A stretch of DNA of 19,570 nucleotides from Elusimicrobia bacterium HGW-Elusimicrobia-2 (GTDB lineage Bacteria > CG03). The position numbers were made by a program, and so were the translations under genes. This document shows, piece by piece, positions 9,001-19,570 of this stretch. The DNA is taken from positions 1 through 19,570 of the forward strand of contig PHAM01000034.1 in NCBI GenBank assembly GCA_002841685.1, written 5' to 3'. The notes below the pieces were generated by a model. That model was given only the letters and a program-made list of their open reading frames with translations. It searched no databases and had not been told where the DNA came from. Numbering within the stretch: position 1 is the first letter of the stretch; every line of letters starts with the position of its first letter.

Positions 9001-11544
9001 GATAGCGTGACGATCGCCCCGTGGAGAGATTCTTCGGGTGCGGGCGTGACGCCGAACGAAGTTGTGCAGGGGGAGAAAAATATTCTTGTGGAGAAATTCT
9101 CGCTCACAACCCGCACCTCCGAATTGGGAGATCCCGAATCCGAGGCTGTCTGGACGGGTATGCGCTCGGCTCTCGGCGGCGATGTGCCCGACCGGTATAT
9201 TGAGAAGGTGAAGGTCTACAGGGATCTTGACGGCAACGGCCTCTATGACTCCGCCAAAGACCAGCTCATAGGCCATGCGGGCGATCCCACCACGGGCGCG
9301 CCGGCCTATGTCAGCGGAGCCGTGAACATACTTTTTGTGAATGAGCGCGTGACATCACCTGATATAAGCAGCGCTTACACGGTGGGGAAAGATTATATGA
9401 ACTGGCCGGTGAACAAATATGCGGGCTATACAATCGAGATCACGACAGGAACTGGCGCCGGACAGAAGAGAACGGTTGTTTCAAACACATCAACCATATT
9501 CACGATATCGCCGGCATGGGACACCATTCCCGACCAGAGCTCCGTCTTTGAAATCAAAACCATCCAGACGATAGGGACGGTGGCCAAAAATTATTTCATG
9601 GTTTACGATCTTTCCGTCAACGCTCCGCCGCTGGCGACGCTCGCGTCCAAATTCACATCTCCGTCATATTTCTTTGTGTCGCAGCCGAATGTGGTTCTTT
9701 TGAAAGACAATCTGCCGATAGAAAGCGCCGAGGCCACAATAAAACCGGCGGTGATAAACATGAAACTCACAGACACGGCTCCGCCGTCCTGTCTGCAGGG
9801 CGAACTCGCCGTGCCTATGGCGGCCATGGAAATTTATGTCTCTTCTTTAACCGTGAAATCCGCGGAAGGCAAGCCGGAGCTCCGTAAGGTAAAAATGTAT
9901 CTCAGGTTCAGCGGAGGTTCGGATGTGCCGGCAACCTATGACGCCAATATCAGCGCCGTGCTCGTTTATGCCGACAGCAACGGCGATGGGGAACTGACGA
10001 GGGTCTGGAACACAGGGACACTGAATTATGAGATCTCCGGTGATTCGCTGATATCAAGCGGCAATGACGCGTTCAGCGGCAATTTGTGCGAAATAAATTT
10101 AACGTCACCGCTTGTACTGAAGACCGTCCCCTCAAAGATATTCATAGCTTTTAATGTGTCGCCCGCGGCTAACACAAATGATTCCGTGGGAATAGACATA
10201 GGACATTTCACCAACGACTGGATAGGGATCAATCCGCCGGAAAGGATTATTGATGACGGCTCGTTCACGTCCGCTTTTTCTCTGATCAAGAGCCAGTACC
10301 GGCCGACGACGCCAGTCGTTACCATGGGGAGCGTCTGGACCAACAGAGGCACCGAGGTGAGCGCCGCATGGGAATCTTATGCGACGCTGGGCGTGGTGGA
10401 GACGAGATACGCCATAGGCCGAATAGCCGGCGGAACCGAAAACCTTTCATGGCAGAGCGTGACAATCCCCGTTTCGGAATGGACACAGGGCTTTGCCTCT
10501 TCCGTCACGGCCCGGGTGGAAAAGCCGCTGTCGGCGAGAAATTATTTCTTTTCCGCGCAGACAGTGGGCAGAAAACTGGTCGGAACCACATTCACGACAG
10601 AGGAGAGCGAAACGGGCTGCGCCCAGTTCTTTGTTGATATGACGAGCCCGGAATCGCCGGCGCAACCGACCATATCAGCACAGGAGACATCGTCCAATTA
10701 CTGGATTATGTGGGTGCCGTCCTATGACATATATGAGGATGCCGCTGATGCGCCACATAGAGTCACAATGGGCATGACAGCTGAGCTTGCCAGCGAGCTG
10801 GCGGCCTCGGGCTACACTTACCAGGCGGATGAGAACGGCGTGATGACTCTCTATACATCCGACGGCGTCGCCGCGGGCGACCCCTTCTCGGGCTATTATG
10901 AATTGAGCTCCGGGGCCAAAGAGAGGGTGCTCGCCAGCGGCGTGAAGTATTATGAACTTCAGGAACAGGCTGACACTTCCGCTAAATGGCACACCATATC
11001 ATCCAAGATTCCTCTGGGCACAAACGGTTATGAGATAGGCACTTCGCTGACTTTATATGAAGACGGGATCGCGAGAAAGAGCGCGGCTAGCTTCTACCGC
11101 TACAGGATAAGGTCTTTGGACAAAGCGGGCAATTATGGTGAATGGTCGAGCGTTTCCGCCGCGCATCAGGCCGCGCCGCCGATGACAGGGATATCGCAGG
11201 TGTCAAATTATCCGAATCCCGTGGACGCGACAAAATACGGCGACACCACGATAGCGTATACGCTGAGTGAACCGTCTACGGTGGATATCACGCTTTATGA
11301 TCTCCTCGGCAAAAAGGTCTATTCATGGCATTTTTCTCCCGACGAAGAAGTGTTCTTTGAAGACGATCCAAGGACAGGGGATTCCCGTTCCGGCGGAGGT
11401 AAGGCCGGCCCGAACAAGATAGCGTGGTATCTCAAGAACGAGGTGGGCAGAAAGGTCGCCAAGGGCGGCTATATCTGTTACATCAAGGTCGCGAATTCAA
11501 AGGGCAGTTTTGAGAAGACCTATAAAATAGCCGTCATCAGATAA
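1..11544 (+). CDS. Giant secreted/surface repeat protein with FlgD-Ig/T9SS-like C-terminal domain (5' end outside window)
   Basis: The frame is open from base 1 to the TAA at 11542-11544, giving at least 3847 residues. Residues before the GTG at base 31 (YWNT-like context, 'NTNAASAP') continue the first repeat, so base 31 is not the start. No signal peptide can be seen because the N-terminus is missing. Domain order: Ig/invasin-like repeats (about 1-5690), larger repeats with Asp/Asn-rich loops (about 5700-10290), a fibronectin-III-like segment (about 10300-11166), and a terminal beta-sandwich domain (11191-11541) of the kind used as sorting or anchoring signals in FCB-type bacteria. Cysteine is scarce and Thr, Ser, Asn, Gly and Asp are abundant, as in extracellular adhesins. 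Likely role (inference): a surface-exposed or secreted adhesin, S-layer-like or matrix protein. The ligand is unknown. It is followed by a hairpin and then the microcompartment operon, with no functional link evident. Confidence 0.9.
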   Translation, partial: WNTNAASAPLVAITSEDTNASLPGSQTLTGGTGDFLFTFKTANTSWTITASNTDGALTSSETAKIQVNPASAVKLLCLVPNETYQPGTTSGKGGGVISQVAGEPFTVTVYGVDANWNINTSANQTVTIGTQDPYDIEPAVQPLIDGTTAFAVTLVRAWSSWVNASATGLTSYTTPSIVVSTNTAVKLIVLVPNVKHDPGEWSGAAASVSPYGRTGAPSVQTAGTGFSVTVMAVDNWWNRRYDSNNIVKITTEDPNDDLYYGFNPAAKALTDGIAVFISTMVTNDPSGIGNQWKITASTADGSALSSDMSAAITMASGATSRLQLLLPNESSAPGTDTGRSGTVSTQTAGVEFTVTVNAADQYWNFVSAPAPNPLVNIETSDPYDQNWGFDPTNQQLQSGTLPFKITMVTEGNWRIYGYPTNYGYTPATSSLLHVQYGAAAKYQVLLPTQTAVAGSVSGKSGVPKTQTAGIVFTATVNVTDAYWNIVPTVSPAANITTHDSFDTNPGNVQLINGSTTFPVIIKTASHGLGSFSSTQTVTASGAYQSNKSSVFGVNSYTPQKLLLLAPGERYVPGDVANLGRGGSPNSQPAGAVFTVTVISCDQYYNQASTNTNITIYTTDPYDDEPGDAQLAGGFKTFNITMKQKGYQRISSSDTATVGKLACYTSQDINIGYGPAVKLQVLLTGEESAPGTASGKTGGYSTPTAGVPYNITVNCVDQYWNVNPDANPWVGIETSDQYDPIISSAVLTSGYKIFSITPVTAGTQTVIASDVDDTGDYYTSNQSTVFNVFPAALDRIIAILPGETYNPGNVPSGGKTGAPSVQTAGSVFQATVYATDEYYNKVSTNCSIGIVTEDPYDAHPDTQTLVAGQLAFDIEMITHGSWDIYAKEITESLNTFDYTTPNVNVIAGSGSRLAVKLQDQTLVEGYGITGIPAVQEAYQTVQFTVYLTDVHYNIASDTRPWVTFATTDPNDNPINNGVPIRIDVNGQLVTSSRLKTSVVAGGSKIYAYSQGFSTGTTPAITVNNASHTNFALTGVPSNLDAGELFNVTVRAKDDYGNTCTGSYDKYGTWVGNKNYTGEIDFTSDTDSDPTDPASLPANYTFLTSDFGQKIFNNLSMFRAGTGRWLKAHDTFYTSKYGQVSDITVTAGALAAFIVSPTAAETTCPAGQSQKIIGTAADLYNNPKSTEGLYCEIKISTKVNSGSPALEDGDGFTVTHATTDANGVIGVSSEIWFYVSTVKNDIARVQIVYSPSIHGETGNIKTAGGSPKKYVIKSSPPPFSVKNADYSGWSKTDEPFVVQRYDQYNNISETGDGYCYPISNSADNPNDDIGGTSKPGRFFKIGVGDPGHQGQPEYFTEPFDDVDYSSWSILIPDGANSCEFYYYELKASWDSISIASWTITAAGGAGIDPDSVAIRVDPGEVSGIAFMTPARSLVAGTTSQIMTVHAQDVEFNEKVVPSDVLCDLMSDASPGNYSFIITPGGGQIVGNTEIVFSTGTYETSFWFTCKVTGNPGILVSASTDTIGKNWSDGSQTQTVTPAPISKIAFTTLNLELTAGVTSQIMTVELQDVFGNQSPIPVGTNGGNPVVFKLQSYPAGRYAFSLSSSVWLAISSATIAVGQAQLSFYYVNTKSNSDPGWEITVDEDAGYSYGWSKASRFVKLYGGQISQVVIITPGRNITAGVKNYLDYGATNYVFTAELRDRFDNTSKATEPTQLLLTSDSGAADFSPDSLQWTQNIVVITSGTPSANFYYYDEIVGAPTIAADERPARGWTMATQTVNVYPNDAVAFKVQHSGSATVYEPKDITVYAVDAYGAGGAGNVCTGHPPLASPYASSSERVYYVSVASFTSSGTTQLNPWSYDFADAVTDDPAHPGISYLQATDVNVTDPPDVPPIIISAYDTADPMIVGTSAEMIIRGALVTPYVDPETYRRIIEMEVYGSTRIYQGAVNRIIERIDLKTNSGTGIWTGLQIDNVGQTAESDIPAIRVWKDGNANARFDSPSKEDPDNLYGISEDIWLSSGAFNPVTRKVELTFTTPQTIGMSPQNYFITVDISEYAEPAKTFVVRMKDRNYFKWDIASEVQLASNNFEIRLPTATITTSPGQITVYGTNLVDEDTMQIEQGTNKLAMIQLDMVTNKYTVPWTKIRLGLKGSVDGGYYDAAKDEYIPSKDIDSVRIYKDRAPFGEFAEDGDQLISSGDETFGQLQPGVCIITLKNPDDVKNEDRAQIISESTSTYFVAFSFTNSATVGATAGVKLANSSGITAFMEGINRVFDYYDYNGNTRRDEGEPDIYPLESEAPPIIATVDMLVVNKAHPGITELTQGSKNNVFEQIILKTDARAVWWSGITVEMLGDIPNEDVDAVKIWKYNSGTIDQSGDPVVNISTMGPTGMKDVLVAKAEGDLVSNTYGAFTSTSVFILFDEASWQEITTVNENYLITYDLDPFAEVGSKLGLNLATKDNLQVEPVDEVKDENFPIKFPAIAIKEYSDNVTFEFSDATALIADKQINQGDVNLPILALNVKTNQSDAFWNSIIIDQAGSAGDEDIDNITIWLDKDNNGKFNETLDEMISSGTFHNGQAAFTFVGHADARRIGPVNTVSYRTEVQNKAYFINFSLSDTAAPAKTIALKIEGDPLLGYLGVSSPNKIATSFEAAGGYLLPSKEIKASPRTLYVEGESLAPETVYQGADDVVMMKLSMWVSGYEVPWTKLQAARSGTGLDEDIERVRLYRDVQVPGQPNYGEWGGGDNLVATGVFDGGICLLDFSTPTASIEIIPTTTIYYFILFDFANSATPGAFTGLRINSNSAFEVETPHNVYNFSPEITSVQAQQLATTDTLEVLTLDPMVAEVTQGDRNVSFARLTLRTDYHDAVVQAVRIYRTGSGIDGDIEAIKIYRDLYEVDGGGVEGVLDSWDIRYDTTTYIYPGLINYGNEVFIDGVADITLKIPQKVGTTADEMDKTYFVAFDIANLASVGKSVGFRILPPGASSFKVIEPDQVQDKNFTTMGAVIGEYPDSVTIAPWRDSSGAGVTPNEVVQGEKNILVEKFSLTTRTSELGDPESEAVWTGMRSALGGDVPDRYIEKVKVYRDLDGNGLYDSAKDQLIGHAGDPTTGAPAYVSGAVNILFVNERVTSPDISSAYTVGKDYMNWPVNKYAGYTIEITTGTGAGQKRTVVSNTSTIFTISPAWDTIPDQSSVFEIKTIQTIGTVAKNYFMVYDLSVNAPPLATLASKFTSPSYFFVSQPNVVLLKDNLPIESAEATIKPAVINMKLTDTAPPSCLQGELAVPMAAMEIYVSSLTVKSAEGKPELRKVKMYLRFSGGSDVPATYDANISAVLVYADSNGDGELTRVWNTGTLNYEISGDSLISSGNDAFSGNLCEINLTSPLVLKTVPSKIFIAFNVSPAANTNDSVGIDIGHFTNDWIGINPPERIIDDGSFTSAFSLIKSQYRPTTPVVTMGSVWTNRGTEVSAAWESYATLGVVETRYAIGRIAGGTENLSWQSVTIPVSEWTQGFASSVTARVEKPLSARNYFFSAQTVGRKLVGTTFTTEESETGCAQFFVDMTSPESPAQPTISAQETSSNYWIMWVPSYDIYEDAADAPHRVTMGMTAELASELAASGYTYQADENGVMTLYTSDGVAAGDPFSGYYELSSGAKERVLASGVKYYELQEQADTSAKWHTISSKIPLGTNGYEIGTSLTLYEDGIARKSAASFYRYRIRSLDKAGNYGEWSSVSAAHQAAPPMTGISQVSNYPNPVDATKYGDTTIAYTLSEPSTVDITLYDLLGKKVYSWHFSPDEEVFFEDDPRTGDSRSGGGKAGPNKIAWYLKNEVGRKVAKGGYICYIKVANSKGSFEKTYKIAVIR
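214..3063 (+). repeat. Eight tandem ~115-residue Ig/invasin-like protein repeats
   Basis: Unit starts read near 214, 550, 958, 1318, 1675, 2023, 2374 and 2728, spaced 336-408 bases. Each begins with a strand like 'VKLxVLLPxE' and then 'PGTxSGKxG'. Next comes 'xQTAGxxFTVTVxxVDxYWN', a phrase like 'ITTEDPYD', a 'LxxGxxxF' strand and a variable end. A partial unit occupies 1-213. The 'AG..F.vTV.a.D.yWN' core resembles bacterial Ig-like (Big/invasin type) domains, but the Trp in 'YWN' and the 'T.DPYD' phrase are family-specific. Units are diverged at DNA level, so this is old duplication and not recent expansion. Confidence 0.85.
3064..5690 (+). repeat. Diverged Ig-like repeats continuing the array (about seven units)
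   Basis: Units begin approximately at 3064, 3436, 3790, 4252, 4612, 4981 and 5332. They keep the pattern 'xxAGxxxxxTVxAxDxxxN' (for example 'LVAGTTSQIMTVHAQDVEFN' and 'LTAGVTSQIMTVELQDVFGN') but lose the 'LLPGE...PG' opening of the first eight. The last two matching phrases, near 4290 and 4650, are close copies of one another. Boundaries are read by eye and are approximate. Confidence 0.6.
5695..10290 (+). repeat. Eight larger (~170-250 residue) beta-rich repeats with Asp/Asn-rich, EF-hand-like loops
   Basis: Units start roughly at 5780, 6292, 6889, 7440, 7978, 8473, 9007 and 9754. The recurring order is: a strand with 'QG' ('IEQGTNK', 'LTQGSKN', 'INQGDVN', 'VYQGADD', 'VTQGDRN', 'VVQGEKN'); a Trp-containing strand ('VWWSGI', 'FWNSI', 'VPWTK', 'VWTGM'); 'DEDIDxVxIxxD'; a loop such as DGNANARFD (5953), DKDNNGKFN (7633-7659), DLDGNGLYD (9223) or DSNGDGELT (9973); 'LISSGxF'; and 'KxYFIxxDIS..A..G'. 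The Asp/Asn loops resemble dockerin/EF-hand calcium loops, so calcium binding is likely but not proven. No named family was recognised for the whole unit. Confidence 0.7.
9337..9561 (+). other. ~75-residue inserted segment inside the seventh large repeat
   Basis: In sister units a strand like 'ELTFTTPQTIG' runs directly into 'xxNYFIxxDIS'. In this unit the strand is split between 'AVNILF' and 'IQTIGTVAKNYF'. The intervening segment contains 'NKYAGYTIEITTGTGAGQ', 'SNTSTIFTISPAWDTIPD' and 'SSVFEI'. From memory, this 'N.yaG..v.i.tGtGaGQ...i.sNt.t.ltv.paWdt.Pd..S.feI' pattern recurs in unrelated phage-tail and surface proteins. The segment is therefore read as a small beta module nested in the repeat. 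Confidence 0.6.
10645..11166 (+). other. Fibronectin-III-like segment of the giant protein
   Basis: The segment opens 'SPESPAQPTISA' after 'FFVDMT', which resembles the inter-domain linkers of FN3 domains. It closes with 'YRYRIRSLDKAGNYGEWS', the usual last strands of an FN3 fold (Y.YRV.A.D.AGN.S.WS). A longer loop region with 'SGYTYQADENGVMTLYTSDG' separates the two halves, so the domain is enlarged relative to a standard ~90-residue FN3. Confidence 0.6.
11191..11541 (+). other. FlgD-Ig / type IX secretion-like C-terminal domain
   Basis: The last ~117 residues hold the classic pattern: 'VSNYPNPV', then 'TTIAYTLSEPSTVDITLYDL' with 'LGKKV', 'GPNKIAWYLKNEVGRKVAKG', 'GYICYIKV' and a basic end 'YKIAVIR'. 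In Bacteroidota, domains of this type direct export by the type IX system. In other phyla similar FlgD-Ig-like ends occur with less certain function. An acidic/Gly-rich loop (about 11335-11405) between 'YSWHFSP' and 'GPNKIAW' is longer than usual. Whether a type IX apparatus exists in this organism cannot be seen here. Confidence 0.8.
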
Positions 11545-11586
11545 TAATGGGGTCAGGTCTTGACGCAAGACCTGACCCCATTATTA
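11542..11586. terminator. Perfect 21-bp inverted repeat (hairpin) overlapping the giant gene's stop codon
   Basis: The left arm is 11542-11562, the loop ACG is 11563-11565 and the right arm is 11566-11586. The arms are exact reverse complements and begin at the TAA stop codon. The core is GGGGTCAGGTCTTG. It could end transcription of the giant gene, but it is not followed by a clean T-run, only 'ATTTGAC'. The core matches, from memory, a palindrome scattered in many environmental bacterial genomes, so it may be a REP/MITE-like element serving as a terminator. A symmetric hairpin would act on both strands. Confidence 0.6.
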
Positions 11587-11588
11587 AT

Positions 11589-11617
11589 TTGACAAAGAGA
11601 AAACTTTTTGATAAAAA
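11589..11617 (+). promoter_or_regulatory. Possible sigma-70-like promoter for the microcompartment operon
   Basis: TTGACA at 11589-11594 is a perfect -35 hexamer directly after the hairpin. The best -10 options are GATAAA (11610-11615, 15-base spacer) or TAAAAA (11612-11617, 17-base spacer), both weak. An alternative is TTGATA (11608) with TATACA/TACAAT (11631-11638). If the latter is used, the upstream coding module would be only partly transcribed. Position between a hairpin and the first operon gene supports a promoter here; the exact boxes are uncertain. Confidence 0.3.
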
Positions 11618-11766
11618 AGACGATGAGACTTATACAATATGAGGACATTCTGTCCGCAGCGCGCACCGGCGGAAAACTTTTTACCGATGGGAAATACATG
11701 CTCACCCCCCTTGCAAAGGAGGCGTTAAAAAGGCATAATGTGGAAATTTTGAGCGGAGGTTCTTCA
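11608..11766 (+). other. In-frame EutT/EutQ-like N-terminal module upstream of, or fused to, triosephosphate isomerase
   Basis: This stretch has no stop and is in frame with tpiA. Candidate starts are TTG 11608 and ATG 11623, neither with a good ribosome site. Read from ATG 11623 it begins 'MRLIQYEDILSAARTGG' and contains 'YMLTPLAKEALKRHNVEIL'. The shape 'i.eedl......g.......lTP.A.e.l....i.i' is what I know from the N-terminal regions of EutT/EutQ-type microcompartment proteins. It is not part of the isomerase fold, which starts at the Met of 11767. Either the product is a 302-residue fusion, or this is a remnant or a separately initiated short peptide reading through. I favour a real coding module because the similarity fits the operon. 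Confidence 0.5.
11755..11759 (+). promoter_or_regulatory. Internal ribosome binding site supporting tpiA start at 11767
   Basis: GGAGG lies 7 bases before ATG 11767, inside the in-frame upstream module. This allows initiation of a standard-length isomerase even if the longer fusion is also made. It is the strongest ribosome site between 11590 and 11770. Confidence 0.65.
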
Positions 11767-12531
11767 ATGAGAAAAATTATAATCGCGGGCAACTGGAAAA
11801 TGAACATGAGCAATGAGGATGCTGTCAGGTTATCCCGGGCTGTGGCCTCCGGCCTGGGGGATTTATCCTCGCGCGGCCGAATAGCCGTGATGTGCCCTCC
11901 TTTTACGGCGCTGAGTTCCGTTGCGTCATCTATATCCGGCTCGAAGGGCCTTTATCTTGGAGCACAGAACATATTTTATGAGGACAAGGGCGCTTATACG
12001 GGAGAGGTATCCGCGGATATGCTGATTTCCTGCGGCTGTTCGTTCTGCATCATAGGCCATTCCGAAAGGAGAAAATATTTTGGCGAAACCGATGAGACGG
12101 TGAACAAAAGGGCGAAGAAAGCTCTTGAGAAATCATTGACGCCGGTAATATGCGTGGGCGAAACTCTGGAAGAAAGGGAATCTTCTCGCGCTTTTAATGT
12201 TGTGAAAAAACAGATCACCGGCGCTCTTCAGGGGATTTCAAAAGAAGATATTGCTAAAGTTGTGATAGCTTATGAGCCTGTCTGGGCCATAGGCACCGGC
12301 AAAACTGCCTCGCCCGAACAGGCCCAGTCTATGCACGCATATATAAGGGAGCAGATAGCGGGGCTTTCCGATGGCGCTGTTGCGCAGAGTGTGTCAATTC
12401 TCTACGGCGGTTCCATGAACCCAGCTAATGTCAAAGGTTTACTTGAATGCACTGACATAGACGGCGGCCTTATAGGCGGAGCCAGCCTCAAGGCGGAAGA
12501 TTTTCTGAAGCTCGTTCACTTTGATGATTGA
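11767..12531 (+). CDS. tpiA: Triosephosphate isomerase
   Basis: The enzyme interconverts glyceraldehyde-3-phosphate and dihydroxyacetone phosphate. From ATG 11767 the protein has 254 residues, the usual family length, and all catalytic elements are present: Asn9/Lys11 in 'GNWKMN', His98 in 'IIGHSERR', Glu170 in 'AYEPVWAIGTGKTA' (with the phosphate-gripping loop 6 directly after), and 'LYGGSMNP' plus 'GGLIGGASL' at the phosphate site. It should be active. It heads the microcompartment operon and overlaps pduL by 8 bases, so the two are probably translated together. Its place here suggests that the pathway releases a triose phosphate, as aldolase-based pathways do (inference). It could also be the cell's general glycolytic copy recruited to the operon. 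The frame extends upstream without a stop (see the entry at 11608). Confidence 0.95.
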   Translation: MRKIIIAGNWKMNMSNEDAVRLSRAVASGLGDLSSRGRIAVMCPPFTALSSVASSISGSKGLYLGAQNIFYEDKGAYTGEVSADMLISCGCSFCIIGHSERRKYFGETDETVNKRAKKALEKSLTPVICVGETLEERESSRAFNVVKKQITGALQGISKEDIAKVVIAYEPVWAIGTGKTASPEQAQSMHAYIREQIAGLSDGAVAQSVSILYGGSMNPANVKGLLECTDIDGGLIGGASLKAEDFLKLVHFDD

Positions 12532-13144
12532 AGCGAAAACAATAGCGGACAATATAGCCCGGAAGCTCGCTCGCGCGTCAAAACCCGTCATATGCAATGT
12601 GTCCAACAGGCATGTGCACATCACGCGGGAGAATTTCAGCACACTTTTCGGACAGACCTACGCCATGAGGAAACTTAAAGATCTGATGCAGCCCGGAGAA
12701 TTCGCTTCCAAGGAGCTGATCGAAATAGCCGGGCCCCGCGGAAGCATAAAAAAGGTGCGGATACTCGGCCCTTTCAGAAAATACACGCAGGTTGAGATAT
12801 CCCGGACTGACAGTTTTAAGCTCGGCGTTTCCGCTCCTGTAAAGGAGTCCGGGAAAATAATCGGCTCCTCGCCCATTAAGCTCATCGGGCCCGCCGGAGA
12901 AGTAGAACTAAAGGAGGGTTGTCTTGCCGCTGTCCGGCACATACACATGACTCCCGCCGACGCGAAGGAGCTGGAACTGAAAGACGGAGAGACGGTGAGG
13001 ATTGAAATAAACGGGAAACGAGGCGGGATTCTGGGCGACACCCTTGTGCGGGTTTCGCCGAAATACGCCCTGGAATGCCATATAGATACGGATGAGGCCA
13101 ACGCTTTTGATTTTAAGAGCGGCGGCTGGATTTATGTTGTTTAG
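12524..13144 (+). CDS. pduL: Phosphate propanoyltransferase (PduL-type phosphotransacylase), with encapsulation helix
   Basis: PduL converts acyl-CoA plus phosphate to acyl-phosphate, recycling CoA inside the compartment. The protein has 206 residues from ATG 12524, a typical length. Signature segments are 'NVSNRHVHIT' (His30, His32), 'QVEISRTDSFKLGVSAPVKESG' read as residues 89-110, and 'RHIHMTPADA' (His139, His141). The paired HxH motifs are the zinc ligands of the family. Residues 2-18 ('IEAKTIADNIARKLARA') form an amphipathic helix like the known PduL encapsulation peptide, so it is probably a lumen enzyme. It overlaps the tpiA stop by 8 bases and lacks a strong ribosome site of its own, suggesting translational coupling. 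The TTG at 12521 is a less likely start. Confidence 0.93.
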   Translation: MIEAKTIADNIARKLARASKPVICNVSNRHVHITRENFSTLFGQTYAMRKLKDLMQPGEFASKELIEIAGPRGSIKKVRILGPFRKYTQVEISRTDSFKLGVSAPVKESGKIIGSSPIKLIGPAGEVELKEGCLAAVRHIHMTPADAKELELKDGETVRIEINGKRGGILGDTLVRVSPKYALECHIDTDEANAFDFKSGGWIYVV

Positions 13145-13153
13145 GAGGTAAAA

Positions 13154-13444
13154 ATGGAAGCTCTCGGAATGATTGAAACGAAAGGTCTTGTGGCGCTTAT
13201 TGAGGCTGCTGACGCCATGGTGAAAGCGGCCAATGTCCAGATCGCCGGTTATGACAAAATAGGCGGCGGTTATGTCACTATTTTCGTCAGGGGAGAAGTC
13301 GCCGCCTGCCGCGCCGCGTGCGAAGCGGGAGCCGCTTCCGCAGGGAGAATCGGTGAGCTCGTGTCTGTTCATGTGATTCCCCAGCCTCACGGTGACCTGG
13401 AAGGCAAGCTCCCTATTTCTTTGCCCGGAAGCAGAAAGAAATAA
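13154..13444 (+). CDS. BMC-H microcompartment shell protein (PduA/EutM/CcmK type), copy 1
   Basis: A 96-residue single-BMC-domain protein that forms hexamers tiling the shell facets. The opening '[20 protein letters not shown]', pore loop 'YDKIGGGY' (Lys35-Ile36-Gly37-Gly38-Gly39), '[16 protein letters not shown]' and 'SVHVIPQPH' are all textbook for the family. The pore is small and neutral, close to PduA's KIGSG. GGAGG at 13144-13148 overlaps the end of the pduL stop codon and lies 5 bases before the ATG, so the start is firm. It is an intact tandem paralogue of the next gene. Short C-terminal tail 'PGSRKK'. Confidence 0.96.
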
Positions 13445-13464
13445 GACGGTAAGGCGCTGATCTG

Positions 13465-13905
13465 ATGCTGAGCCGCGCGAAGCGCTTCGTCCGCCGTGGC
13501 GAGTCCGCCTCCGGAGGATCGTCTCTGGGGATGCTGGAGACACGCGGCCGTCTTGCGCTGATAGCCGCATCCGACGCCATGGCGAAAGCAGCGTTCGTGG
13601 AGGTGCTCGGCACCGCGAAAACAGGAGAAGGTTTTACCACTGTTTTCGTGCGCGGGGATGTAGCCAGCTGCCAGGCCGCGTGCGAAGCTGGAGCGATTGC
13701 CGCGTCGGAGTTGGATTCTCTTGTGGCGGTCCATGTTATAGCCCAGCCGCATCCGCAATTGAAAGAGCACTGGCCGGAAATAATAGAAGTGGTGAGCCCA
13801 TTCGACTCGCTCTGCTCGCTCAGGGTCGAACCCAAAGTGGTGAGTCCTTCGATTTCACTCAGGATACTGAGCCTGTCGAAGTACGAAGCCGAACCAAAGT
13901 GGTGA
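13465..13905 (+). CDS. BMC-H microcompartment shell protein, copy 2, with abnormal N- and C-terminal extensions
   Basis: The core from 'LGMLETRGRLALIAASDAM' to 'VAVHVIAQPHPQLKEHWPEI' aligns with copy 1 along its whole length. The pore loop is KTGEG (residues 52-56 from ATG 13465), so Glu55 puts negative charge in the pore, unlike copy 1. Both ends are odd. The N-terminal 20 or so residues are basic ('MLSRAKRFVRRGE') and lie over palindromic DNA. Residues 109-146 are encoded by dispersed-repeat-like palindromes and end 'YEAEPKW'. Start choice is open: ATG 13465 has no good ribosome site; ATG 13531 follows GGAGG (13513-13517) by 13 bases but would clip the domain; an in-frame CTG at 13525 has the ideal 7-base spacing. 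The core looks intact, so it is probably a functional shell protein. Confidence 0.88.
   Translation: MLSRAKRFVRRGESASGGSSLGMLETRGRLALIAASDAMAKAAFVEVLGTAKTGEGFTTVFVRGDVASCQAACEAGAIAASELDSLVAVHVIAQPHPQLKEHWPEIIEVVSPFDSLCSLRVEPKVVSPSISLRILSLSKYEAEPKW
13478..13517. repeat. Palindrome-bearing segment at the 5' end of the second BMC-H gene
   Basis: CGAAGCGCTTCG at 13478-13489 is a perfect 12-bp palindrome and CCTCCGGAGG at 13508-13517 a perfect 10-bp palindrome, separated by 18 bases. GTCCGCC occurs twice (at about 13489 and 13503). The stretch codes for the extra N-terminal residues that copy 1 lacks. It is read as a possible dispersed repeat fused to the gene start; this depends on genome-wide copies that cannot be checked here. 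Confidence 0.4.
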
Positions 13906-13921
13906 GCTAAGCCGAACCAAA
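13786..13921. repeat. Cluster of dispersed-repeat-like palindromes at the 3' end of the second BMC-H gene
   Basis: Three copies of (A)AGTGGTGAG lie at 13788-13796, 13834-13844 and 13896-13906. Between the first two, TTCGAC (13801-13806) pairs with GTCGAA (13825-13830). Between the second and third, CTTCGA (13847-13852) pairs with TCGAAG (13876-13881), with CTCAG/CTGAG (13858-13862, 13867-13871) inside. AAGCCGAACCAAA is directly repeated at 13886-13898 and 13909-13921. The motifs resemble, from memory, 'CTTCGAC...CTCAG' intergenic repeats common in environmental bacterial genomes. Here they are mostly inside a coding frame. Confidence 0.75.
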
Positions 13922-13932
13922 AGGAGGCAATA

Positions 13933-14223
13933 ATGCAATTTGCCAGAGTTATAGGTAACTGTGTCTGTACGGTGAAGGACGCCAAATTGCCTAAGGAAAA
14001 ACTTCTTGTCATACAGCCGGTGGATTCGTCGCTCAAGAAAGCGGCGGGATCTCCCCTTGTGGCCATAGATGTCGTCGGTGCGGGCAACGGTGAGCTGGTG
14101 CTTTTTGTTTCCGGTTCATCGGCGAGGCAGACGACCATAACGGAAAACAAACCCACCGACTGCACCGTTATGGCGATAGTGGATTATGTTGAAAAAGACG
14201 GTAAGCTGATTTTTTCGAAGTAG
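13933..14223 (+). CDS. BMC-P microcompartment vertex protein (EutN/CcmL family)
   Basis: A 96-residue protein that as a pentamer caps the vertices of the polyhedral shell. Hallmarks are the opening 'MQFARVIGNCVCTVKDAKL', 'KLLVIQPVD', 'VAIDVVGAGNGELVLFVSGSSAR' and the final 'DCTVMAIVDYVE'. Length and order match EutN/CcmL/PduN. GGAGG at 13923-13927 with a 5-base spacer fixes the start, immediately after the repeat cluster that ends the preceding shell gene. A gap of 31 bases leads to the aldehyde dehydrogenase gene. Its presence with BMC-H proteins means that a closed shell can be made from this operon. Confidence 0.95.
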   Translation: MQFARVIGNCVCTVKDAKLPKEKLLVIQPVDSSLKKAAGSPLVAIDVVGAGNGELVLFVSGSSARQTTITENKPTDCTVMAIVDYVEKDGKLIFSK

Positions 14224-14254
14224 GCGTTGATGCTGCCCTTGCAGCGGAGGTTTT

Positions 14255-15673
14255 ATGGATAATGCGGATATAGAAAAAATTGTTGATGAGGTTATGAAAA
14301 GAATACCTGCCTCTTCCGGAGCTGCTTTGCCCGCGGAGATTTTATCCGGCCCGCTTTTTGACACGATGGATGAGGCGATCTCAGCCTCGGTCAAAGCTCA
14401 GAAGTTTTTCCAGGATCAGGGCGTGGAAAAGCGCGTGAAAATAATAGAGGCGATTCGCAAGGCGGCTCTTGATAACGCCGAGGTTCTGGCGAGCGCCGCT
14501 CAGATTGAAACAAAGATGGGCCGCGCCGCTGATAAGATAATCAAAAATAAACTGGCCGCCGAGAAAACGCCCGGCGTTGAAGACGTGCAGCCCGGCGCTT
14601 TTACGGGAGATCACGGAATGACCCTGGTGGAATACGGGCCCTTCGGCGTTGTGGGCTCGGTGATACCGTCCACAAACCCGACATCCACGGTGATAAACAA
14701 CACGATAAGTATTTTGTCCGGCGGCAATTCCGTTATTTTTGCGCCTCATCCTTCGGCAAAGAATTGCTCACTTAAGGCGATAAGTATTTTACAGAATGCC
14801 GTTAGTTCCGCAGGCGGCCCCGGCGCGCTCATCTCCGCTATGAAAAAACCCTCTCTTGAAGGGGCGGAAATGCTTTTTGACGACCCCAGGGTCAAGCTCA
14901 TGGCTGTCACCGGCGGCCCCGCCGTGGTGCGCCGGGCGATGAGGAGCGAAAAACGGGTGATAGCCGCAGGCCCCGGAAATCCTCCCGTCGTGATAGATGA
15001 AACTGCTCAGTTTCCGAAATGCGCCGCGGATGTTATTAGCGGCGCCTCTTTTGACAACGGTGTTTTGTGCACCGCTGAAAAAGCCGTCATTGTCTGTGAA
15101 AAGGCCTGGGACAGTTTTATATCCGCCATGCGCGCTGATAGCAGGGCTTTTGAACTCAACGCCGGGCAGTTTGATGCGCTCACGATTGCGGCGATCAAAG
15201 AGCCGGCCACTCCGGAAAAGAGTGAGGGCGTTGTCAACAGGGATTTTATAGGCCGCGATGCCGCCGTTATAGCAAAGGCAATAGGTATAGAAGTTCCATC
15301 AACGGTGCGGCTTTTATGGGCCGCGGTTCCTCAGGCACACCCCTTTGTCTGGACGGAACAGCTCATGCCTGTGCTTCCCGTGACCATGGCGGCGGATATT
15401 GACGAAGCCATTGAGCTGGCAAGAAAAGTGGAAGCCGGTAACCGTCACACGGCCGTTATGCATTCTACAAATGTGGCCAATCTTTCCAAAATGGCGCGCG
15501 CCATGCAGTGCTCCATCTTCGTTAAAAACGGGCCTTCCTATATGGGGCTTGGTATGGGCACCGGTTATGCGACGCTGACCATTTCCACTCCGACGGGAGA
15601 AGGGCTGACAAAAGCAAAGGATTTCACGAGGGAGCTTCGATGTGCTCTCGTGGATAATTTCAGGATTGTGTAG
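14255..15673 (+). CDS. pduP/eutE-like: CoA-acylating aldehyde dehydrogenase (PduP/EutE type), with encapsulation peptide
   Basis: Oxidises an aldehyde (acetaldehyde, propionaldehyde or similar) to acyl-CoA with NAD+ and CoA; the core metabolosome enzyme. The protein has 472 residues, normal for the family. Residues 2-17 ('DNADIEKIVDEVMKRI') are a typical amphipathic encapsulation helix, followed by a flexible Pro/Ala/Ser linker to about residue 30. The catalytic domain shows 'GPFGVVGSVIPSTNPTST', 'AGPGNPPVVID' and the catalytic Cys272 in 'FDNGVLCTAEKAV', near the Cys position of PduP. GGAGG 4 bases before the ATG supports the start. The product acyl-CoA is the substrate of PduL in the same operon. 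Which aldehyde is used cannot be read from the sequence. Confidence 0.95.
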   Translation: MDNADIEKIVDEVMKRIPASSGAALPAEILSGPLFDTMDEAISASVKAQKFFQDQGVEKRVKIIEAIRKAALDNAEVLASAAQIETKMGRAADKIIKNKLAAEKTPGVEDVQPGAFTGDHGMTLVEYGPFGVVGSVIPSTNPTSTVINNTISILSGGNSVIFAPHPSAKNCSLKAISILQNAVSSAGGPGALISAMKKPSLEGAEMLFDDPRVKLMAVTGGPAVVRRAMRSEKRVIAAGPGNPPVVIDETAQFPKCAADVISGASFDNGVLCTAEKAVIVCEKAWDSFISAMRADSRAFELNAGQFDALTIAAIKEPATPEKSEGVVNRDFIGRDAAVIAKAIGIEVPSTVRLLWAAVPQAHPFVWTEQLMPVLPVTMAADIDEAIELARKVEAGNRHTAVMHSTNVANLSKMARAMQCSIFVKNGPSYMGLGMGTGYATLTISTPTGEGLTKAKDFTRELRCALVDNFRIV

Positions 15674-15687
15674 CGGGGAGAAAAAAT

Positions 15688-16398
15688 ATGCTCAAATTTA
15701 ATGTAGCTGATTTCGAGAAATCTTTATCAGAATCTTTTAGTAAGTATAAAAGGTTCGGCCCTCGAAGTCCCAAAAAATTAACTCCTCTGCATAAGTATGT
15801 TCAAAATACATTGGCGCTAATATGGGGAAAAAAATTTAAAATATATTGTCTCGGCGCCGGGGGGGAATTCAAAGTTGAAGGTAAATATTATCCGAAAGAT
15901 ATTGATATTACAGTAACTTATTTAGAAAAACCAATTTTTTGTGTTGGGGTAAAATTTGTTACGTCTAATTACAAGCAAAATGCTAATAATTATTTTGAAA
16001 ATATGATGGGGGAAACAGCGAATATTCAATCATTGAAAAATTTACCATACGCACAATTGCTGATATTAAGATATAAAACGCCTTATTATAAAAAAAGAGC
16101 AAGTTATAACGACACAAGTGAGATAGGGAAAATTGAAATAATAAGCAAGAGCGATTTGGATAAGTATATTAAACTTTGTTTTGATAGCAGGCAAGCCCAT
16201 AGACCTGATATTATGGCGATACAGCTGATAGAAGCTGATGAAAAGACACACAAAGTAAAATGTCTTTCGCCGTTCAAATTGTATGACGATAAATTGGCGC
16301 AATTGCTGGATACCGCATTATCGGTAAAAAAGTTTTTTGAGGATATTGAAAGCTTCAAAAATTATTATGAATTAAATCAAAATGGCGACACTATTTAA
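15688..16398 (+). CDS. Putative type II restriction endonuclease
   Basis: A 236-residue AT-rich gene starting 14 bases after the dehydrogenase stop, with GGGGAG as ribosome site. It overlaps the following methyltransferase by 17 bases, the arrangement expected of a restriction-modification pair. A nuclease-like core can be read: Glu60 in 'GGEFKVEGKYYP', Asp71/Asp73 in 'KDIDITV', and a strand 'CVGVKF' with Lys89. This resembles a PD-(D/E)XK site in which the usual Glu two residues before Lys is Gly87. The next segment 'NYKQNANNYFENMMGETANI' recalls a conserved family of predicted restriction enzymes. Recognition sequence unknown. No signal peptide or membrane segment. Composition differs sharply from the shell genes, indicating transfer. 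Confidence 0.65.
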   Translation: MLKFNVADFEKSLSESFSKYKRFGPRSPKKLTPLHKYVQNTLALIWGKKFKIYCLGAGGEFKVEGKYYPKDIDITVTYLEKPIFCVGVKFVTSNYKQNANNYFENMMGETANIQSLKNLPYAQLLILRYKTPYYKKRASYNDTSEIGKIEIISKSDLDKYIKLCFDSRQAHRPDIMAIQLIEADEKTHKVKCLSPFKLYDDKLAQLLDTALSVKKFFEDIESFKNYYELNQNGDTI

Positions 16399-17947
16399 AA
16401 ATCACTCGGATAAGAAATTACTTGGTCAAATATATACGCCTGATTTTATTGTAAAAAAAATACTGAATGATATGGGGTATAAAGGAAAAAATATTTTGAA
16501 AAAATATATATTAGATTCTTCCTGTGGAGACGGCAGATTTTTAATTGAAGCCGCGCGTAGAATAATAAGCGAATCCAAACCCAATGAATTAAAAGAAAAT
16601 TTATCTTATCTTTATGGATGGGATATAGATAATAAGGCTGTAAAAAAGTGTAAAAAAAATTTAAATAAGCTTATTGGGAAATATAGTATTAGCATAGATT
16701 GGAATATTAAATGTTGCAATACGTTAAGGAAAATAGAAAATTTCAATTCGTTATTCAAAAATGAAAATTTTATGACATTTGATTATATAGTAGGAAATCC
16801 GCCATATATAAGGATTCAGCATTTAGAAGAGGAACAAAGGAAATTTATTCAACGAAATTATAATTTTTGCTCTAACGGTTCTACTGACATTTATATTGCT
16901 TTTTTTGAGTTTTGCTTAAAGTCTTTAAAAAAAACAGGCGTTTGCGGATTAATAACGCCCAATACTTATTTTACAACTGAAACCGCTCAAATTATTAGAA
17001 AATATTTTGAAGACAATAGAAACTTAATAAAGATAACAAATTATGGGGACATTCAAATTTTTGAGAATGCCACCACATACAGCGCTATAACTATTTTTGG
17101 CAGAAAAACTAATAAAAATTTTGTTTTTGAAAAAGCGAAAACAAAAAAAAGTTTTATCGACAGGGAAGTAGATTTTAAGGAAATTGCGGACACAGAGTTT
17201 TGGCAATTATCCGCCGAAAATGAATTCAGAAAAAGGGTGGGGAAAAAATTAAAAGAAATTTGTGATATCCATTGCGGCCTGGCAACTTTAGCAGACAGGG
17301 CGTATATTATGAAATTTATAAATTTTGAGGGAGATTGTATCAATTTATTTTCCAGATTAAAAGGAAAAGTGAAAATAGAAAAAGATATATTAAAACCCAT
17401 TATTAAGGCATCCCGTTTAAAATTTTCCGGCGAGGCCATAAGCGAATATATTTTGTTTCCGTATAAAAAAGAATCAGGTAAAAGTAAAATTATTTCAGAA
17501 AACGAGTTGAAGAGCAAATATCCGAATGCTTATAAATATTTATGTGCGGTTAAAAATTATTTAGATAAAAGATGTAATGGCAAACCAAATCCTGTCGCGT
17601 GGTATGCATATGGCCGGACACAAGCCTTGGATACAAGTTTTGGCAAAAAAATTCTATTTTCGCCCATGGCCCAAAAACCGAATTTTATATATTGCGGTAA
17701 TGAAGAAACTACTTTTTATTCCGGATACTGTATAAAATACGGAGGCGAGCCCGAGAAATTGCTGCAACAACTAAATAGTAGAGAAATGGAGGAATTTGTT
17801 TTAATATCAGGGAGAGATTTTAGAGACGGCTGGAAATCTTATAGCAAAAAGATTATCCAGGAATTTGTCGTGAATATTACTGAACCTGACACGGTGAAAA
17901 TAAGGGCAGGATTTGGAAAAGAGCGTTTTATGAATTTGGGGGTGTGA
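16382..17947 (+). CDS. N6-adenine DNA methyltransferase (M.TaqI/Eco57I-like, gamma class)
   Basis: A 521-residue methylase that would protect host DNA against the endonuclease encoded upstream. 'LGQIYTPDFIVKKIL' (about residues 14-28) is the usual opening of these enzymes. Motif I, 'LDSSCGDGRFLIEA', binds S-adenosylmethionine (residues 44-57), and NPPY at 139-142 is the catalytic motif of adenine-N6 methylases. The C-terminal part from 'FWQLSAENEFRKRVGKKLKE' onward looks like a TaqI-type target-recognition domain. It is longer than M.TaqI (421 residues, from memory), as many type II/IIG-like relatives are. The ATG lies within the end of the endonuclease gene with no clear ribosome site, so translation is probably coupled. 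Strongly AT-rich. Confidence 0.9.
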   Translation: MATLFKNHSDKKLLGQIYTPDFIVKKILNDMGYKGKNILKKYILDSSCGDGRFLIEAARRIISESKPNELKENLSYLYGWDIDNKAVKKCKKNLNKLIGKYSISIDWNIKCCNTLRKIENFNSLFKNENFMTFDYIVGNPPYIRIQHLEEEQRKFIQRNYNFCSNGSTDIYIAFFEFCLKSLKKTGVCGLITPNTYFTTETAQIIRKYFEDNRNLIKITNYGDIQIFENATTYSAITIFGRKTNKNFVFEKAKTKKSFIDREVDFKEIADTEFWQLSAENEFRKRVGKKLKEICDIHCGLATLADRAYIMKFINFEGDCINLFSRLKGKVKIEKDILKPIIKASRLKFSGEAISEYILFPYKKESGKSKIISENELKSKYPNAYKYLCAVKNYLDKRCNGKPNPVAWYAYGRTQALDTSFGKKILFSPMAQKPNFIYCGNEETTFYSGYCIKYGGEPEKLLQQLNSREMEEFVLISGRDFRDGWKSYSKKIIQEFVVNITEPDTVKIRAGFGKERFMNLGV

Positions 17948-17950
17948 ACA

Positions 17951-18340
17951 TTGATTATAAGGAAATTTAATCACGGCGCGGATCTGTGCGAAGAGATAAA
18001 ACGGGTCTGTAAAAAAGAGAAGGTCAAATCGGGATGGTTTAATGTTATCGGAGCTTTGAAGGGGCTGTCTATTGCTTTTTATGACCAGAAAAAAAAGAAG
18101 TACGGGGAAATTAAACTTCGAGGTGCATGGGAAATAAGTTCCTGCATGGGAAATATTTCTCTCAGTGACGTCGGGCGGATTTTCGTGCATGCGCATATCA
18201 ATGCCGCCGATAAGAAAGGAAATGTGAAGGGTGGACATCTGCTGAAGAGCGAGATCTTCGCCGCGGAGCTTGCACTATTTCCCTCGCATGAAATTCTGAA
18301 AAGAAAGTTTGATAAAACAACAGGTTTGAAATTATGGTAA
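17951..18340 (+). CDS. PCC/DUF296 (PPC-domain) protein
   Basis: A 129-residue single-domain protein of the Plants-and-Prokaryotes-Conserved fold, a small trimer-forming family. Visible hallmarks are 'GWFNVIGALKG' (residues 28-38), 'WEISSCMGNISL' (60-71) and 'FVHAHINAADKKGNVKGGHL' (78-97). His80, His82 and His96 are the conserved putative metal-binding histidines. Bacterial members are often called DNA-binding by similarity to plant AT-hook proteins, but no AT-hook is present here and the role is unproven. The start is TTG at 17951, 3 bases after the methyltransferase stop, with GGGGG at 17938-17942 as a possible ribosome site. Base composition is closer to the shell genes than to the restriction pair, so this is probably an original operon member. 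It overlaps the next gene by 7 bases. Confidence 0.8.
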   Translation: MIIRKFNHGADLCEEIKRVCKKEKVKSGWFNVIGALKGLSIAFYDQKKKKYGEIKLRGAWEISSCMGNISLSDVGRIFVHAHINAADKKGNVKGGHLLKSEIFAAELALFPSHEILKRKFDKTTGLKLW

Positions 18341-19185
18341 AAACATTTTTTAAAACTATTTTGTTACTTTTGTGTTTTTCGAAAACACCGGCAATTTTTG
18401 CAATAGATGGGGTATTTGAAGATGAAAAAGGAAATATCCATTATCCGACGAATTATGAATATTTCCCGGTTAGCAAGGAAAATTTTATTTTGAGATATGG
18501 TGATATATTATTTTTTGCATCTACCGGAGACGAGAAGAGTTGTTTTAAGGCAGTAAGAATAGCAAAAAACCTTCTTGCTGTTCCTTTTTTAAATGAATTT
18601 TCTCCGAATTTTAAGAACAATATAGAAAATAGTTTTTTGCCAGCGATAAAGAAAAATGTAGGTGAGGAAAGATTCAAGAAAATGTGGAATGAAGTTGAAT
18701 CTATTAAGTATATCGAAGGCAAGAATGTTGTTTACAAAAATTTATGGTGTGGTTTTCAAATAAAATTTCCCAAAAATTGGAAGATTTTGGCTGAAGGTGA
18801 GCATACAGAGGATGAACAGGCATTATTACAAATTGAGTCACCCGCAATCCTCGGGGATGACAATAAGGTGGTCTTTCCGTCTCTTGCTGTTGCTGTTAAA
18901 AAAGTGTTAAACGGGACTTCTGTAAAAAATTATTTTCAATTCTGGCAAAGTGTTATGGAAAAGAAAGGCGCTAAATTTTCAACCATTAGTGAATATAAAA
19001 AAGGTCTTAGGTCGGTTTTCAATGTCAGAAGCAGTGTTAATGCTTTTAAAGGGGAAATTACATGCTTTGTTGAAAATGATTTTGGCTATTATCTAAACTT
19101 TACAGCAAAGCCGAGTGTATGGAAGCAGTCGCAAATACAGTTTAGTGAAATTTTGGGTAGTTTTGAGATAATAAAACAAAAATGA
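18334..19185 (+). CDS. Secreted protein with PsbP/DcrB-like C-terminal half; function unknown
   Basis: 283 residues. The N-terminus 'MVKTFFKTILLLLCFSK' followed by 'TPAIFA' reads as a signal peptide cut after Ala23, so the mature protein would be extracytoplasmic. There is no lipobox: the Cys at 14 lies within the hydrophobic core. Residues from about 135 ('YKNLWCGFQIKFPKNWKI') to the end ('SEILGSFEII') resemble PsbP/DcrB/DUF1795-type domains, whose members often open with 'F.i.yP..W' and end with 'f..il.SF'. The N-terminal half (about 24-130) is not recognised. The gene is AT-rich, unlike the flanking shell and pduS genes. It overlaps the PCC gene by 7 bases and the pduS-like gene by 4 bases (ATGA). 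A secreted product in the middle of a cytoplasmic microcompartment operon is unexpected. Confidence 0.7.
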   Translation: MVKTFFKTILLLLCFSKTPAIFAIDGVFEDEKGNIHYPTNYEYFPVSKENFILRYGDILFFASTGDEKSCFKAVRIAKNLLAVPFLNEFSPNFKNNIENSFLPAIKKNVGEERFKKMWNEVESIKYIEGKNVVYKNLWCGFQIKFPKNWKILAEGEHTEDEQALLQIESPAILGDDNKVVFPSLAVAVKKVLNGTSVKNYFQFWQSVMEKKGAKFSTISEYKKGLRSVFNVRSSVNAFKGEITCFVENDFGYYLNFTAKPSVWKQSQIQFSEILGSFEIIKQK

Positions 19186-19570
19186 CAAAAGAAGAAATAA
19201 TAAAAAAAGTCAGGGACGCGGGCGTTGTCGGCTGCGGCGGCGCGGGCTTCCCCACACATGTTAAGATAGCGGCCCCGGCGGATTTTGTCATAGCCAACGG
19301 CGCGGAATGCGAGCCGCTGCTGAAGGGTGACCAGTATTTGATGGCAGAACACGCATCCGAGATTGTGAGGGGAATGAAGTATGTCATGCAAACTTCAGGA
19401 GCTTCCGCCGCTTACATAGGGCTCAAAAAAAAGTACCGCAGGCAGATAGAAGCGCTCAGCAGAGTCCTGGCGCCTGGCATTAAAGTTTTTGAGATGGAAA
19501 ATGTTTATCCCTCCGGCGATGAGCATGTCATGGTCCATGAGATAACAGGGCGGATCGTACCCGAGGCGGG
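19182..19570 (+). CDS. pduS-like: PduS/RnfC-like NADH-dependent flavin/Fe-S oxidoreductase (3' end outside window)
   Basis: The first 129 residues are visible; the frame runs off the right edge. 'GVVGCGGAGFPTHVK' (residues 14-28) and 'IANGAECEPLLKGDQ' (37-51) are the NADH/FMN-binding signatures shared by PduS, RnfC and the Nqo1/NuoF family. The form 'ANGAECEPLL' and the absence of an N-terminal domain before the Gly-rich loop favour PduS over RnfC. PduS reduces corrinoid cofactors in propanediol compartments; in B12-free systems homologues are thought to move electrons or recycle NAD+. The Fe-S cluster motifs would be further downstream. ATG 19182 overlaps the previous stop by 4 bases. Composition returns to that of the shell genes. 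Confidence 0.9.
   Translation, partial: MTKEEIIKKVRDAGVVGCGGAGFPTHVKIAAPADFVIANGAECEPLLKGDQYLMAEHASEIVRGMKYVMQTSGASAAYIGLKKKYRRQIEALSRVLAPGIKVFEMENVYPSGDEHVMVHEITGRIVPEA

Follow-up and report, generated by a model that had tools for sequence, protein, structure and literature searches.

Sugar-phosphate-utilisation (SPU) metabolosomes are bacterial microcompartments (BMCs) whose loci encode a DeoC-type aldolase, RpiB, acylating aldehyde dehydrogenase (AldDH), PduL, PduS and shell proteins of the BMC-H, BMC-P and BMC-T kinds (PMC4207490; Sutter et al., 2021, PMC8217296). They were described with DeoC, RpiB, AldDH, PduL and PduS, and in one Atribacteria genome also with triosephosphate isomerase (TIM) (Axen et al., 2014, PMC4207490). 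SPU loci were later counted at more than 280 in 26 phyla and divided into subtypes SPU1-7. DeoC-type (pfam01791) and RpiB (pfam02502) proteins are common to all of them, AldDH lies on the EUT1 branch, and the function is read as catabolism of DNA sugars (PMC8217296). Three loci labelled as Elusimicrobia (L076, L078 and L079) have the order TIM-PduL-H-P-AldDH-T-RpiB-P-P-DeoC. Here we analyzed a 19,570-base stretch of Elusimicrobia DNA (the window), which is the entire contig C74 of genome G000 (1.78 Mb, 94 contigs, 96% complete) and carries a microcompartment operon headed by TIM. This operon very probably belongs to an SPU metabolosome and is cut by an assembly break. The SPU type is already published, and the compartment type itself is not new. 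Compared to published SPU loci, TIM is fused to an EutQ-N-like domain and has a conserved internal start, two RpiB and a PCC-domain gene are present, and restriction-modification (R-M) cassettes are inserted. The new part of the locus is TIM, with its EutQ-N-like domain and possible two forms.

The N-terminal extension of TIM has its closest counterpart in EutQ of the ethanolamine compartment, whose first ~45 residues are homologous to it. In EutQ, however, the shell-binding part has a pair of cargo-binding helices and a cupin domain as partners instead of TIM. Work on Salmonella showed that EutQ attaches to the shell through residues 9-41 (H1/H2) and that its residues 1-99 direct GFP to the compartment (PMC12487888). 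TIM in the SPU loci L065 (Deltaproteobacteria) and L128 (Sutcliffiella) also carries an N-terminal addition resembling a targeting element, but this is a classical encapsulation peptide, a short amphipathic helix, rather than an EutQ-N-like domain. Long and short forms of one gene are produced from an internal start in PduB/PduB’ and CcmM-58/CcmM-35. These are shell or scaffold proteins, whereas here the two forms would be those of a single-copy enzyme of central metabolism.

Contig join and completed operon

A search of the same genome for BMC domains found a second contig, C52 (coordinates below given as L006), which carries a further BMC-H and, close to its left end, a tandem BMC-T. The window ends inside pduS, and C52 starts in the middle of pduS. 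The two parts match complementary regions of the NCBIfam rnfC profile, positions 120-251 for the window and 258-433 for C52. In G003, a genome of the same genus, pduS is uninterrupted: the sequence at the end of C74 (...CCCGAGGCGGG) is followed by TATCCCTATCA and then by the start of C52 (ATGTGGGTTG...). By this comparison the gap between the contigs is 11 bases, and the reading frame is open across it. Judged from these sequences, C74 and C52 are one operon split by an assembly break.

The completed order is TIM-PduL-BMC-H-BMC-H-BMC-P-AldDH-(methyltransferase cassette)-PCC-(gene without assigned family)-PduS, continued on C52 by BMC-T-(TdeIII R-M with AbiU-like gene)-RpiB-RpiB-BMC-P-BMC-P-DeoC-BMC-H-(92-amino-acid (aa) adaptor-like protein). 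The shell genes comprise three BMC-H, three BMC-P and one tandem BMC-T. A V-type ATPase operon lies 3’ of the microcompartment operon. In G003 the operon is compact (TIM-PduL-H-H-P-AldDH-PCC-PduS-T-RpiB-RpiB-P-P-DeoC), with the H-adaptor end on a separate contig. The gene order is found again elsewhere in the phylum, and DeoC and BMC genes occur together recurrently in its families f1-f6.

An earlier note on this DNA had listed TIM, PduL, two BMC-H, one BMC-P, AldDH and PduS in one operon. Family matches agree on all of them, with PduS represented by its N-terminal part. The same note found no signature enzyme, which holds for the window and fails for the locus, since DeoC is encoded on C52; the enzyme seemed absent because the assembly breaks in mid-operon. 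Its idea that TIM points to an aldolase step yielding an aldehyde and triose phosphate was borne out, the aldolase being DeoC, accompanied by two RpiB and BMC-T. It had proposed to look downstream for DeoC, RpiB, BMC-T and acetate kinase: the first three are all on C52, and acetate kinase is elsewhere (contig C67). No ethanolamine ammonia-lyase, diol dehydratase or glycyl-radical enzyme, any of which it held would indicate a standard class, is found among the open reading frames (ORFs) of the completed locus. The contig end inside pduS and the genes that separate AldDH from pduS (the cassette at 15688-17947, the PCC gene and a 283-aa gene) had not been mentioned.

N-terminal domain and start codons of TIM

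One TIM gene (PF00121) was found in the 96%-complete G000, and one in every relative where any was found. The gene as called spans 11608/11623-12531. Its N-terminus was compared in 11 fully readable genomes of families f1, f2, f3, f4 and f6. In all of them TIM has 47-55 extra N-terminal residues, and G015 provides a twelfth case, at a contig end. The ATG of the long start and the fused frame are conserved in the 11 genomes, and the linkers vary in length. Within the genus, pN/pS of the extension is 0.08-0.22, as low as in TIM itself. A profile of eight extensions matches residues 2-45 of E. coli EutQ (9.9e-6, among 21 E. coli eut-region proteins). The extension is also homologous to the C-terminal half of the 92-aa protein, whose own profile matches eutQ (2e-6) and eutT (1.1e-4) in the same set. 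AlphaFold predicts a β-α-β-β-α-β fold for both; pLDDT of the TIM extension is near 80, and below 50 in a flexible hinge. A Foldseek search with the model of the 92-aa protein, which is of low overall confidence, gave nothing below E 0.25. At the sequence level, the TIM extension is homologous to the EutQ N-terminus. By analogy with H1/H2 of Salmonella EutQ, we somewhat favor a role of this domain in anchoring TIM to the shell. In the literature searched, no natural TIM in microcompartments is reported beyond PMC4207490.

Two Met codons are invariant (11/11), the first one and the one at the ancestral TIM start. The internal ATG at 11767 is preceded by a Shine-Dalgarno (SD) sequence of -10.2 kcal/mol. 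A strong SD is found at this place in all 11 genomes (-7.8 to -12.2 kcal/mol), and -7.8 kcal/mol or better is reached by 3.6% of 722 internal ATG codons in the background. It is kept over deep divergence despite changes in the encoded peptide (GGSS, GGKQ, RRRI, REEKN, TEEL, REDI). No SD is found before the long start in nine of the 11. Instead, a promoter of the form TTGAC(A/T)-16/18-TA(T/A)A(A/T)(A/T/G) ends 3-11 nt 5’ of the first ATG in ten (score threshold 10/12, reached by 2.3% of shuffled sequences, per sequence), so a leaderless or nearly leaderless mRNA is predicted. These features tentatively suggest two TIM isoforms from one gene, one shell-anchored and one cytosolic. The long form would be translated from the leaderless mRNA and tethered to the inner face of the SPU shell by the EutQ-like domain. 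The short form would arise from the internal ribosome-binding site and remain free in the cytosol for ordinary glycolysis/gluconeogenesis.

Several points weigh against the shell-anchored form and the two isoforms. Shell binding is argued from weak-to-moderate homology (EutQ E ~1e-5 in a 21-protein set) and has no structure match. When codons are redrawn with the peptide fixed, the internal SD is only modestly in excess (Fisher p = 0.0045, seven genomes), though consistently so across the seven. TIM lacks the domain in family f5 and in genome G013, and the domain is therefore not essential to the type. This absence, together with the sole TIM gene and the strong SD at the internal but not, in nine of the 11 genomes, at the long start, would also suit a plain housekeeping enzyme that is first in the operon by chance, with the domain a relic without targeting and only the short form made. 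We consider this unlikely, since purifying selection acts on the domain as strongly as on TIM, and the domain stays in frame across differing linkers with both Met codons invariant and has a promoter just 5’ of the long start in ten genomes.

The opposite possibility is that all TIM is long and shell-anchored, that triose phosphates are isomerised at the compartment, and that the internal SD is an unused inheritance from an unfused ancestor. The single gene and the leaderless-like position of the -35/-10 elements fit this. However, the SD persists through amino-acid change over deep divergence, and fructose-bisphosphate (FBP) aldolase and phosphoglycerate kinase (PGK), encoded elsewhere (C33 and C60, respectively), need cytosolic TIM, which makes exclusive anchoring quite improbable.

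A near-perfect hairpin (TAATAATGGGGTCAGGTC...GACCTGACCCCATTATTA, 11543-11587) lies immediately 5’ of the TIM promoter. Its core sequence has three further sites in the genome, and it may be a REP-like repeat.

Compartment type and substrate

The metabolic scheme of the SPU compartment is inferred from protein families. Inside the shell, DeoC would cleave a deoxyribose-5-phosphate-type sugar phosphate to acetaldehyde and glyceraldehyde-3-phosphate, with the RpiB paralogues preparing or isomerising the sugar phosphate. The EutE-like dehydrogenase, which along its full length shares 47% identity with the acetaldehyde dehydrogenase EutE of E. coli (BLASTP), would produce acetyl-CoA. PduL would convert this to acetyl-phosphate, from which acetate kinase would make ATP. 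PduS would serve in electron transfer, and TIM would convert triose phosphate to dihydroxyacetone phosphate (DHAP) or the reverse. Encapsulation-peptide-like helices are found at the N-termini of DeoC and AldDH, and by eye also of PduL and the 92-aa protein. The substrate is probably sugar phosphates from DNA.

The two RpiB paralogues, side by side at L006:5725-6608, differ at an active-site position, Asp in RpiB1 and Cys in RpiB2. We take this position to be the catalytic Cys of E. coli RpiB. The difference suggests, from sequence, a LacA/LacB-like heteromer or divided function.

Not everything agrees with this scheme. Alcohol dehydrogenase is not encoded in the locus, the substrate of RpiB1 is uncertain because Asp replaces the catalytic Cys, the substrate and enzyme activities of the locus are predicted from families, and the genomes compared are all fragmented. 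A sugar phosphate other than 2-deoxyribose-5-phosphate, such as a 5-deoxypentose or another deoxy-sugar phosphate, would be in line with LacAB/RpiB-like isomerisation by the differing RpiB pair, and a DHAP-yielding cleavage would need TIM. This is given little probability, because the aldolase clearly matches the DeoC equivalog and is not of the class II FucA/RhaD type, and the published reading of SPU is DNA sugar catabolism. The earlier note's suggestion of an undefined, possibly new type is superseded, because DeoC, RpiB and BMC-T are on the contig that continues pduS: a new compartment without a signature enzyme, as the window by itself would imply, is ruled out by the contig join and by the same genes in relatives’ intact operons, and its probability is negligible.

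DeoC has a cysteine-rich linker between the encapsulation peptide and the core, with four Cys in G000 (L006:7224-7600), and such a linker also occurs in DeoC of relatives. In families f3, f4 and f6 DeoC has an extra N-terminal domain of ~150-200 residues. As a hallmark of SPU, a CxxCxxC metal motif N-terminal to the DeoC core was considered and rejected as not general (7/31 compartment loci).

Inserted genes, other features and implications

The features of the locus are listed in the table.

Table. Predicted features of the window and of its continuation on contig C52 (L006).
Feature	Position	Strand	Basis or remark
Sigma-70 promoter, predicted	11587..11617	+	TTGACA - 17 - TAAAAA; ends ~5 nt before long-form ATG
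EutQ-N-like N-terminal domain, 48 aa, in-frame fusion to TIM, predicted shell anchor	11623..11766	+	conservation, EutQ profile match
TIM core	11767..12531	+	PF00121 4e-93; internal ATG 11767 after GGAGG
PduL phosphotransacylase, encapsulation-peptide-like N-terminus	12521..13144	+	PF06130 1.7e-73
BMC-H shell protein 1	13154..13444	+	PF00936 3.6e-29
BMC-H shell protein 2, repeat-like C-terminal tail	13465..13905	+	PF00936 9e-20
BMC-P pentamer	13933..14223	+	PF03319 3.8e-28
AldDH, EutE-like, encapsulation-peptide-like N-terminus	14255..15673	+	NF011927 4e-181
236-aa protein without assigned family, first gene of inserted cassette	15688-16398	+	ORF
Eco57I-like Type II methyltransferase, second gene of inserted cassette	16382-17947	+	PF07669; PADLOC MTase_II 4e-131
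PCC (DUF296) domain protein	17951..18340	+	PF03479 2e-26; synteny
283-aa protein without assigned family	18334..19185	+	ORF
PduS/RnfC-like N-terminal part, truncated at contig end	19182..19570	+	NCBIfam rnfC; continues at G000:C52:1-914
RpiB, two copies	L006:5725-6174 and 6171-6608		PF02502
DeoC	L006:7224-8264		TIGR00126 5e-85; PF01791 1.3e-21
92-aa adaptor-like protein	L006:8635-8913		profile match to EutQ, EutT

The left half of the contig is occupied by a 3837-aa ORF (31-11544), which probably encodes a large protein that is secreted or displayed on the surface; it has segments that repeat and, at its C-terminus, a sorting-like domain. In the second BMC-H, the tail (13750-13905) is encoded by repeat-like DNA and varies among close relatives. 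By synteny, the PCC-domain gene is a kept member of the operon in families f1 and f2. The 283-aa gene, whose protein has no match in Pfam or PADLOC, is a probable insertion, because it is absent from relatives’ operons and PCC directly adjoins pduS in G003.

The methyltransferase cassette sits between AldDH and PCC, and the same site is empty in G003. In G004 a methyltransferase is located on the same side of PCC and is 82% identical; the flanking proteins are ~65% identical. A TdeIII R-M pair is found between BMC-T and RpiB in G000 (L006:1477-5704) and G002, and is missing in G003. Among 80 other loci a TdeIII-like pair occurs only in L106, ~8 kb from its SPU genes. Type II R-M genes lie at gene boundaries of the operon, on the same strand and at matching places in different genomes (window; L006; L035; L028). 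In the second cassette, the AIPR/AbiU-like gene (L006:3089-4904) is divided over two overlapping frames and hence either broken or mis-assembled; at this site G002 lacks the AIPR/AbiU-like gene. A HEAT-repeat gene and a gene for an amidase-like secreted protein are located between ntpA and ntpB (L006:14946-17887). Their relatives are found just 5’ of pduS in G001 (L029:269-2979), and ntpA and ntpB adjoin in G003. The inserted genes all share the strand of the operon and are joined at gene boundaries. They are regarded as passengers, not microcompartment parts; R-M genes as working parts of the compartment were rejected, as they are absent at the same G003 junctions and present in only some relatives. 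In the neighboring ATPase operon, G002 has an intein with LAGLIDADG domains in subunit A of its V-type ATPase (L028:14-3310), and the G005 counterpart (L034:5879-9160) shows a similar gap; G000 and G003 have neither.

The locus illustrates that an assembly break can mimic a missing signature enzyme. Its assignment to SPU puts a candidate-phylum lineage among the presumed recyclers of DNA sugars. If the two forms of TIM are true, alternative starts would allot a single-copy enzyme of central metabolism to both the cytosol and a bacterial organelle, and the shell-binding module of EutQ would serve a different cargo in another type of compartment.

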